Shown: positions 3,032 to 47,013 of the stretch, piece by piece
Numbering within the stretch: position 1 is the first letter of the stretch
Layout of the letters: the number at the start of each line of letters is the position of its first letter
Assembly: GCA_029553545.1 (NCBI GenBank)
Contig: JAKPKU010000103.1
Location: forward strand, 1-50,281
DNA: 50,281 nucleotides
Reading direction: 5' to 3'
Source: Candidatus Cloacimonadota bacterium
Lineage (GTDB): Bacteria; Cloacimonadota; Cloacimonadia; Cloacimonadales; WRIO01
Notes under the pieces: model-generated
Databases searched by the model: none
The model's input: only the letters and a program-made list of their open reading frames with translations
Told to the model about the DNA's origin: nothing
Translations under genes and position numbers: made by a program

Positions 3032-3341
3032 GGCAATTATGAATTTTTTATAAATGATACTTTAAAATACATGATCATAGTAAGATATCGCTTTAAAAAC
3101 TTTATAAAAAGAACTCAATAAAAAGGATTAAGTTACTATACTTCTTTTAATTAATAATTATTATATGGACTTCATTTTCAAAAACAAAAGATCATTGATT
3201 TTGTGATCTTCTAAAGAAAAGAATGTATAACATAATTTAAAATAACGTTAGAAAAAAACTAAATAATCAATTTACATGGCTTATTTTTCTCCTTTTCATT
3301 CAATATTCTGTTGACTGTTGTATACGACTATTTATCAAAGA

Positions 3342-3431
3342 GATGCCTACTTGATCACCCTTGCATTCCCCTTGCTATCTTGGAGAATGAAAGGTATTTT
3401 AATAGGAATCAAAAGGGAATGGAATGGAGAT
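3342..3431 (+). repeat. dispersed repeat B, copy 1
   Basis: Shares two exact blocks with copy 2 at the same 38-base offset: a 24-base block (3364-3387, starting CATTCCCC and ending TTGGAGAA) and an 18-base block ATAGGAATCAAAAGGGAA (3402-3419). Preceding bases GATGCCTACTTGAT also match loosely. The block folds as an imperfect hairpin with arms CATTC and GAATG. The reverse complement of its CTATCTTGGAGAATG (3375-3389) is found exactly in copy 3. Similarity to copy 2 may extend some 40 bases upstream. Confidence 0.8.
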
Positions 3432-3761
3432 TATGTAATCGCTTTTTTATAATCTTAAGACTCTTATAACAAGGCTAAATGAGATTTTGTTTACAATGCT
3501 TTTTATTTCTTATATCGATGAAGCTAACTGGCATGAAAGATCTCACTTATACTTTTATTTTACCATTTTTAGAATGCACTATTTTAGAAGCAGATATTTT
3601 TTTACATTATTCATGATCTGTTTATTAAAATAAAGCACTCACAATTAAGATGCGTTAGTCTTTTCACACGAAACAATGATTTTAGTTTTTCAAGTTTTTA
3701 GCTGATAAAAAAACACTTGACCTATTTTACAAAAATCAAATACTTGGCTTTAGGAGGAATA

Positions 3762-13746: not shown

Positions 13747-14050
13747 TCAATATATTGTTAGAGCGTAGCATAGCATCCCTTAGTCATAATAAAAAGCTTT
13801 CTAAAAGCAGTTATCATACTTTATTTAATGGGGGATGTGCTTTTCAAGTTAAAACGCATTCACATTTAATACATTAATAAAGTGACTTCATAGAAAATCA
13901 ATATAAACTGTAAAAAATACTGCTTGAAAATTGACATATTTAACAATTAAAGAGCCATGAAAAAATACAATTAATCCTATTTTATCATTTGTTTTAGTCT
14001 CATTTCATAAAAATTCTGATCATTGATGTATATTATTATTTACCAGTAAT

Positions 14051-14140
14051 ATGTCTATGCGATTACCCTTACATTCCCCTTGCTATCTTGGAGAACTTAT
14101 GGTAATCTTATAGGAATCAAAAGGGAAAGTAAAGTAGATT
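14051..14140 (+). repeat. dispersed repeat B, copy 2
   Basis: Carries the same 24-base block (14072-14095) and the same 18-base block ATAGGAATCAAAAGGGAA (14110-14127) as copy 1, with identical 38-base offset. The sequence between the blocks has drifted, which suggests that the two blocks, not the whole segment, are under constraint. Confidence 0.8.
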
Positions 14141-14391
14141 TATTAAGAGTTTTTTATAGGATAAAAAAGATTAATCTCGTTATCATTTTTTTTAAATATT
14201 GAGATGGAGTGTATGAAGCTTGTCTGATTTATATATTTAACTTTGTTTCATCTATATTAAAAGAAAACAACTATAATAACTCAAATTTTATTTAAGAGAG
14301 TAAAGTACTGAAAAAAGGTAAAATACCAATGCATTATAAAGAGCTATTAGCAACTAAAAGTCTGCATATTTATAAAATAGACAATTTATTA

Positions 14392-18297: not shown

Positions 18298-18330
18298 AAT
18301 CGACCCCCAAAACGGGGGTTGATTAATTAG
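18298..18330 (+). terminator. intrinsic terminator after serS
   Basis: AATCGACCCCC and GGGGGTTGATT pair around AAAAC (18298-18323), an 11-bp stem with one G-T pair, followed by AATTAG. There is no long T run, so it may act partly as an mRNA-stabilising hairpin. Confidence 0.65.
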
Positions 18331-18364
18331 AAATTTGTAATGCATAATTTTGATTTACAAATTT
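18331..18364. repeat. inverted repeat
   Basis: AAATTTGTAA (18331-18340) and TTACAAATTT (18355-18364) are exact reverse complements across a 14-base loop, directly after the serS terminator. It could be a second transcript end or a binding site. Confidence 0.5.
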
Positions 18365-18451
18365 GAAGAATAATAATTATAATAAAATATACTGCCGTAA
18401 AAAGAAAACTATACCTATAGATTACAAAAATCGTTAGATTTTACCTCATCT

Positions 18452-18478
18452 AATGTAGGGGAGAGCTGTGCTCATCTG
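18452..18478 (+). repeat. short hairpin motif A, copy 1
   Basis: AATGTAGGGGAGAGCTGTGC followed by TCATCTG matches the motif at 42101-42127 with four differences. Both contain a small hairpin GAGC-NNN-GCTC after a GTAGGG box. Confidence 0.5.
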
Positions 18479-18572
18479 AAGCAACAAGGCCGCAAGCATC
18501 ACCTGCAGCAAAGCATAGAACGAAAAGTGCTTTATCGTGTGCTATTCAAAAAAGAAAGTGCATTGTAAAAAC

Positions 18573-18743
18573 AAATCACATCTAAACCCGTTCGTAGTAG
18601 TCATCTGCGGATTTAGGTGAAAATAGTTTTCAAAAAACTCCATTTTGTAAAGCCTATATATATAGAGGGTGGTGTTTTTTAAACTCATAAATCGGCTTTA
18701 TTCTTTTAGAAGTAATTTTGATTTACTATACAACAGTCTCTCA
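18573..18743 (+). repeat. dispersed ~170-bp repeat R, copy 1
   Basis: Aligns by eye with 46400-46570 at roughly 85 percent identity over the whole length, and more weakly with the reverse complement of 41123-41287. Landmarks in order are AAATCACATCTAAACCC, CATCTGC, GATTTAGGTGAAAATAG, a GTTTTCNAAAAAC palindrome, a TATATATATAGAGGG hairpin and CTATACAACAG. No protein frame is conserved. See findings. Confidence 0.85.
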
Positions 18744-41122: not shown

Positions 41123-41287
41123 TTATTATTAGGCTGTAGCAGAAAACCAAAATATCTTATAAAAGGATATAGAAGATTTATGATTTGAAAAACAACGCCC
41201 TCTATATGCTGGGATTACAAAATGGGGATTAGGAAAACTATTTTCACCTTAATCAGCAGATGCCAACAATGAGCATGTTTAGATATT
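41123..41287 (-). repeat. dispersed ~170-bp repeat R, copy 3 (inverted, most diverged)
   Basis: Read on the minus strand it shows the landmarks of R1 and R2 in the same order: ATATCTAAACATGC, GGCATCTGCTGATT, AAGGTGAAAATAGTTTTCC, ATATAGAGGGCGTTGTTTTT and CTACAGCCTAATAAT. Roughly two thirds of positions match. Confidence 0.75.
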
Positions 41288-41408
41288 ATTTATTTTAACA
41301 AAGTAGGAAACTTGGTCCTCTCTTTTCATGATGTGAAAATAACTTAAAAAAAACTTGTTAAAAGTGGGAAACTAATTATATTATAAATATTCTTATAAAT
41401 GTCTATTA

Positions 41409-41492
41409 GATACCTATTTGATGCCCTTTATACTCCCTTTCATTCTCCAAGATAGGAAATAGAATGTCAAGGGAATCTCAAGGTAAAGACAG
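41409..41492 (-). repeat. dispersed repeat B, copy 3 (inverted)
   Basis: CATTCTCCAAGATAG (41441-41455) is the exact reverse complement of 3375-3389 in copy 1. Flanking parts also align when inverted: CCTATTTGATGCC and TACTCCCTTT on one side, GAATG-TCAAGGG on the other. It ends about five bases before the ribosome-binding site of the unknown ORF. Confidence 0.65.
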
Positions 41493-46026: not shown

Positions 46027-46593
46027 TTACACTCCTCCATTATTATCTATTCATTTTAAAAGTCAAAATCTATTACTATGACATTTTGTCAAGTAAACAG
46101 TCAAAAAATTATATATACTACTAAAAACTTGAAAAGTAAACATGATTTTTATGTTATAAATAGAGGATTATTGACAATATAGTAGTGATTATCAGAGAAT
46201 ATAATTATTCAAATATCTTATAATTTTGAGAACAGTTTTTATAAATGAAAATGGATTCAGACTGTCTCATTTTAAATTAATAAAGGGTGTTGGTTAATGC
46301 ATAATTCAAATATACAGGCTTGAAGAATACTGAAAGATGACAATTGAGAGATGAAATGTAATTGATCTAATCCGATTAAAGATAATTGTTCATACAAAAA
46401 AATCACATCTAAACCCGCTTGTAGTAGGCATCTGCTGATTTAGGTGAAAATAGTTTTCGAAAAACTCCGTTTTGTAAGCCCTATATATATAGAGGGTGTT
46501 GTTTTTATTTATGATTTTTCTTTATTCTTTTATACGATATTTTGATTACTATACAACAGCCTCTAATATTAAGACTATTTGCTCTATGAGCTC
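46027..46593. other. 570-bp intergenic region with repeat R2
   Basis: Between the arcA start and the end of the small exported protein gene, both on the minus strand. It holds a TTGACA on the minus strand (46092-46087) without a good -10, AT-rich sequence, and repeat R2 (46400-46570) lying only 24 bases from the neighbouring stop codon. No coding frame is seen. Confidence 0.6.
46400..46570 (+). repeat. dispersed ~170-bp repeat R, copy 2
   Basis: The best-preserved copy. AAATCACATCTAAACCC (46400-46416), a perfect GTTTTCGAAAAC palindrome (46453-46464), the hairpin CCCTATATATATAGAGGG (46479-46496) and CTATACAACAGCCTCTAAT near the end. It aligns with R1 with two short indels. Confidence 0.85.
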
Positions 46594-47013
46594 TTAATTC
46601 GTATCTGCAATGAGAGACAAAAATATATCAATAAATTCATCAAGCTCACTATAAATGACATTAGCAATACTATCAAGATGTTTTATGCCAACAAATCCCA
46701 GCCGATTATATCCATAAATATCTATATCACCCATAGATATCAAGATAGTATAATTGTAAATGATCGAGTTGCCTTCCCAATCCTTATCGTCCTGAAACCT
46801 ATCCATCGTATCGATCACAATCTTAAAGTGCGGCTCTGTTTTATTATAGGTAATAGTATATGCTGGCGATTTTCTTATTAAATCTCTAAACTTTGATACA
46901 AGAATAAGCCCATTGGAGTCATCAGCATTGTTGACTATCTCTACCGGAATAATCTCTGCAAAGACGCTCACGGTTAACAATAATAAGAATAAGAATATAA
47001 TACCTTTTTTCAT
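46594..47013 (-). CDS. small exported protein, unknown
   Basis: A 139-residue protein with a signal peptide (MKKGIIFLFLLLLTVSVFA, cleaved before EIIPVE). The mature part of about 120 residues alternates strands and helices, with YTITYNKTEPHFKIVIDTMD, IIYNYTILIS and GIKHLDSIANVIYSELDEFID. No known family is recognised. The second of two ATG codons is preferred because it stands five bases from AGGAGG. It lies divergent from the DUF975 membrane protein gene; repeat R2 follows its stop codon. Confidence 0.6.
   Translation of the reverse strand: MKKGIIFLFLLLLTVSVFAEIIPVEIVNNADDSNGLILVSKFRDLIRKSPAYTITYNKTEPHFKIVIDTMDRFQDDKDWEGNSIIYNYTILISMGDIDIYGYNRLGFVGIKHLDSIANVIYSELDEFIDIFLSLIADTN

Follow-up and report, generated by a model that had tools for sequence, protein, structure and literature searches.

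The non-coding repeat R is very probably a high-copy, non-autonomous MITE, for which an IS5-family transposase is the probable driver and which encloses a core that is itself probably older. The assignment follows from terminal inverted repeats (TIRs), target-site duplications (TSDs) of 5 bp, ends resembling those of an IS5-like element and near-identical young copies. Within an uncultured phylum, a conspicuous class of intergenic sequence can thereby be explained as mobile, for which a plausible driver and young members are at hand, and an older module common to several genera can be told apart from the mobile shell that spreads it. There is also a practical side, as R and its IS break assemblies of such genomes.

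Extent and anatomy of the repeat

The window is the whole stretch of 50,281 nucleotides analysed, which corresponds to contig 58 in a draft genome of 2.88 Mb and 268 contigs. Three related non-coding copies had been described in it by an earlier note, and they are indeed present there with a likeness far above chance. The starts given for two of them, 18573 and 46400, were wrong and the boundaries too short, as copy 2 runs from 46283 and copy 1 from near 18312. Copies 1 and 2 agree at 86% over 129 nt and have more arm blocks in common, and copy 3 is an inverted relative (81-84% over 63-69 nt). No open reading frame (ORF) is common to the R copies, as had been said before. The expectation of many copies per genome was borne out by the core pattern TGCTGATTTAGGTGAAAATAGTTTT, which has 99 matches genome-wide at up to three mismatches, against none for the reversed-pattern control.

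Ninety-eight of these 99 places were gathered with their flanks and read in register. Their comparison resolves R into three modules, namely a left arm that begins GAGGGTGTTGATTAATGCATAATTCAGG, a core of about 113 bp that passes from an A-run through TCACCTCTAAACCCGCTCGTAGTAGGCATCTGCTGATTTAGGTGAAAATAGTTTTC and TATATATATAGAGGGTGATG to a T-run, and a right arm that ends in GGTTACTATGCAACAGCCTC. Under a rough classifier, and with some places cut by contig ends, 45 places carry both arms, 27 the right arm only, 10 the left arm only and 16 neither. The main form measures 281 bp and a young subfamily 315 bp. The features in the window are as follows.

46283..46563, plus strand: copy 2, a complete R element (MITE) of 281 bp, delimited by TIR match and flanking duplication
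46278..46282: left target-site duplication of copy 2, TAATA
46564..46568: right target-site duplication of copy 2, TAATA
46283..46395, plus strand: left arm of copy 2, beginning AAGGGTGTTGG (consensus GAGGGTGTTGATTAATGCAT)
46396..46508, plus strand: core of copy 2, from A-run to T-run
46509..46563, plus strand: right arm of copy 2, with the TIR end ..GATTACTATACAACAGCCTC
18312..18740, plus strand: copy 1, a longer R-derived mosaic at which no TSD was seen
about 18312-18375, plus strand: left-arm remnant of copy 1
from that remnant to about 18565: stretch of unrelated or strongly changed DNA in copy 1, before the core
18568..18682, plus strand: core of copy 1
18683..18740, plus strand: right arm of copy 1, with the end ..TACAACAGTCTC
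41131..41297, minus strand: copy 3, a diverged core and right arm, with no convincing left arm

Two landmarks once held to be conserved proved variable, since many copies have GTCCTGCCAATATATATAGAGGG in place of the CCCTATATATATAGAGGG hairpin, and the GTTTTCGAAAAC palindrome often reads GTTTTCAAAAAAC. The placing of copy 2 at 24 bases after a stop codon is right with respect to one ORF on the opposite strand, ending at 46594, but not otherwise.

Other repeats were noticed as well. By visual comparison, a second family occupies 3251-3447, 13959-14155 and, inverted, 41398-41477 of the window. Two related-looking elements of 360 bp, L135 (G000:C7:7254-7613) and L136 (G000:C93:17378-17737), have the ends GAGGGTGTTGCATAGAT / TATGCAACAGCCTC and are flanked by exact TSDs of 5 bp, ATAAT in one case and AGGTA in the other. 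The left flanks of five R copies (L103, L061, L062, L059, L090) contain arrays of small hairpins with a CGAAG/CGCAG-type loop and CCTAACC joints, for example CCTAACCTTCGACGAAGTCGAAGTACCTAACCCGCAGCGAAGCGAGGACC, the stems of which vary yet remain paired. Short tandem modules abut the A-run of cores without a left arm, GTGTGTTG in G000 (L043, L072, L083) and GTTCGCTG/GTTCGTTG in G001 (L221, L226, L228, L229).

Terminal repeats, target-site duplications and a candidate driver

The TIRs of R are imperfect in consensus (left GAGGGTGTTG, right GAGGCTGTTGCATAGT, the latter also given as GAGGCTGTTG) and perfect over 10 bp in the young subfamily. Clear TIRs had previously been denied, and with them an evident MITE, because the left arm had been trimmed off; they exist, and copy 2 bears them between exact TAATA repeats on both sides. 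The target-site duplications that the earlier note had proposed to look for were sought among 41 copies with ends that could be set, a few of them weakly delimited, which works against the signal. Exact 5-bp duplications flank six of the 41 against 0.45 expected (at most 4 in 2000 shuffles), and 15 have 5-bp flanks with no more than one mismatch against 3.5 expected (at most 10 in shuffles), with no enrichment at other duplication lengths in the same 41. An exact TSD is missing from most R copies. Over 131 bp, four young copies show 98.5-100% identity, and all four are located at contig ends, as is to be expected since repeats break assembly. No empty allele of an R site was seen in another strain, the species of the window being represented by one genome. 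Thus, among the options raised earlier, that of a mobile repeat is upheld by TIRs, 5-bp TSDs and high copy number.

When the TIRs were used as a query, contigs were found that break off within elements starting with GAGGGTGTTGCATAGTCAAC or GAGGGTGTTGAATAAAGCCG. Contig 117 opens with a fragment of a DDE transposase, downstream of which stands the second of these IS ends with one base changed. The fragment matches IS5-family models (NCBIfam NF033581, Pfam PF01609) and scores below the NF033581 cut-off because only its C-terminal half is assembled. Both IS ends are united in a 101-bp relic on contig 235 with the TSD AAGTT. R resembles GAGGGTGTTGCATAGTCAAC at its right end (GAGGCTGTTGCATAGTAACC) and GAGGGTGTTGAATAAAGCCG at its left end, which reads GAGGGTGTTGAATAATGCAT in the 315-bp subfamily, so that the likeness holds side for side; it is confined to roughly the outer 14-18 bp, and R therefore cannot be derived from the assembled IS ends by internal deletion alone. 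The assembly contains neither the complete parent IS nor its interior, and different contigs carry the two ends and the transposase fragment. The TSDs of the IS5 family range from 2 to 9 bp (PMC4596501), and the 5 bp of R falls inside this range. As read from the sequence, then, R combines TIRs, 5-bp TSDs, high copy number, near-identical young copies and a side-for-side match to IS ends.

From these features we infer which transposase would act on R and that its activity may continue. An IS5-family DDE transposase with its gene at another place in the genome would probably bind the unequal ends of R, GAGGGTGTTG-wTTAATGCAT on the left and GAGGCTGTTGCATAGTAACC on the right, and would excise or copy the element, which would then be joined at a staggered cut of 5 bp, made in AT-rich DNA between genes, and leave a 5-bp duplication.

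R has also been a target. Another MITE is inserted in an R core on contig 173, with the TSD ATAGA, and its flanks rejoin to an intact core; an element of 178 bp with the ends GAGATCTTTGAATTAG/CTAATTCAAAGCTCTC sits in an R left arm on contig 185, with the TSD TAATT. Such nested insertions are empty-site-like evidence for the inserting elements and not for R. An IS with ends GAGAGCTTTGAATTAG was considered as the parent of R and rejected, its 178-bp relative being the one nested in the left arm with a TSD of its own. Insertions with GAGAGCTTTGAATTAG ends occupy the same site of R left arms in L132 (G000:C142:1-436) and L133 (G000:C185), and on contig 142 stop codons break up the ORF of this element, which starts MSGSFIDSEIDSI. 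Within R cores, the TATATATA stretch appears to be preferred for insertion by the IS5-like IS and other MITEs with GAGGSTGTTG ends (L118, L120, L124, L126, L056).

The core and what it may be

That the core is separable from the mobile element, and probably older, was not foreseen by the earlier note. A sequence model of the core has at least 34 matches in G001, a sister species of the same genus in which 34 candidates were scored. All 34 copies read there are diverged cores devoid of R's arms, and one further copy, on contig 87, bears the left arm. The cores of this species split into two sub-types before TATATATATA, with either GTCCTGCG or CGGACGCA. A sub-motif of about 45 bp (AAACCCC..ATTTTGTCnTnCGTATATATATAGAGGG) has counterparts in other genera of the order. 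With a model built on the right-hand part of the core, 31 of the order's 107 genomes give matches at E 0.01 or better; one genome has 11, and members of another genus have up to 8. The 15-mer TATATATATAGAGGG by itself is present in 10 of 125 genomes of the phylum, its reversed control once in each of two. These counts are rough, since the motif itself was used for selection and the filters were strict, and chance may account for the weakest matches. Alignments of the matches outside the training set look convincing. In other genera TATATATATAGAGGG also lies within longer repeated stretches (L160, L170, L174, L202 and L208 in G045; L161, L171 and L175 in G053), which suggests independent amplification there.

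The core of about 113 bp is thus probably older than the MITE, because the sister species has armless, diverged cores and the sub-motif is found in other genera. An older intergenic module of the genus may have become enclosed by IS-type ends and been amplified with them, the succession of these events being deduced from the distribution of cores and arms; the armless copies would be either pre-existing cores or decayed MITEs. It is tentatively proposed, as a possibility rather than an expectation, that the core, and above all AAACCCC..ATTTTGTCnTnCGTATATATATAGAGGG, is an undescribed functional intergenic element of the order, repeatedly amplified by lineage-specific mobile elements, with the MITE as its vehicle here. 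Were the module functional, the MITE would be carrying regulatory DNA.

Among more specific functions, that of a selected promoter or protein-binding site in the order-wide part of the core, carried along by mobile elements, is rather unlikely. The motif of about 45 bp is present in several genera, and in some copies outside the genus TTGACA stands about 19-21 nt before TATATATATA, often with a same-strand gene downstream, but this distance exceeds what is usual for a sigma-70 promoter. Moreover, the copies in the window have no good -35, the promoter-like sites in copy 2 are no more numerous than in shuffles, and no clear gene-orientation bias surrounds the copies in this genome. Where the neighbours of copies with both arms are clear, simple ORF calls give 10 divergent, 15 co-directional and 6 convergent arrangements, as insertion tolerated between genes might show. 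Since R copies occur in all gene-orientation contexts, the 3'-UTR element once suggested finds no support. A role of the order-wide motif as an rRNA or tRNA promoter was considered and rejected, the 19 loci searched holding one tRNA and no rRNA. The A-run, inverted ends and T-run, with the edges AAAAAATCACCTC..GAGGGTGATGTTTTTT in many copies, would suit a bidirectional transcription terminator or similar gene-end signal. Such a signal is nonetheless improbable, as no terminator was called in copy 2 or inside the core of copy 1, R copies show no preference for convergent gene pairs, and related motifs in other genera often have no T-run. The G+C-rich stem followed directly by a T-run, as in an intrinsic terminator, was not found in the cores of copies 1 and 2.

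A structured non-coding or cis-acting RNA family, in which the copies would be RNA genes or leaders and their mobility secondary, had been put forward by the earlier note and is now very improbable. The core is kept apart from the arms in the sister species, and copy 1 of the window and one sister copy fold better than their shuffles (z -2.99 each), but the other single-copy scores are -0.85 and +0.45, for an overall span of -3.0 to +0.5. Searches of Rfam, strict and lax, gave no credible match for the core, which has no fixed orientation to genes. The named three-helix structure has 74.3% paired cells in the 34 sister-species copies against 73.7% in shuffled ones. A check for compensatory base changes, as suggested beforehand, gave no convincing covariation; RNAalifold predicted no pairs for the 34 sister copies and only one-sided variation for 95 cores. 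The sister copies were also divided into their two sub-types for folding, again with no convincing covariation. The preferred reading remains that of a MITE enclosing a probably older core.

Relation to known mobile elements

R is of a known kind, a MITE, and is a new family for Cloacimonadota as far as the literature searched shows, that search having found no paper on repeats of this phylum. In being short, high-copy, intergenic and hairpin-prone, R is like REP/RAYT elements, and two matches to Y1 transposases occur in the window's genome. Y1 transposases are not known to generate TIRs and 5-bp TSDs. R has both, and no Y1 match was found in the sister genome with its approximately 34 cores, which makes spread of R as a REP/IS200-like palindromic element by a Y1 (RAYT) transposase exceedingly unlikely. 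The IS5 family (NF033581, PF01609) offers the candidate partner, as the transposase fragment matches its models and the associated ends bear a TIR common to R; unlike an IS of that family, R encodes nothing.

The nearest described analogue of R is the set of Porphyromonas gingivalis MITEs with IS5-family ends (BrickBuilt, MITE293/MITE700), which are short, intergenic and without a transposase, and which have TIRs that match an IS5-family IS of the same genome around an unrelated interior (PMC4596501). R is like them in its short, intergenic, transposase-less form, in its IS5-family-type ends and in an interior unrelated to the IS. BrickBuilt contains a minisatellite, generates TSDs of variable length and is present at about 10-20 copies per genome (PMC4596501), whereas R has a unique core of about 113 bp, TSDs of 5 bp and close to 100 core copies.
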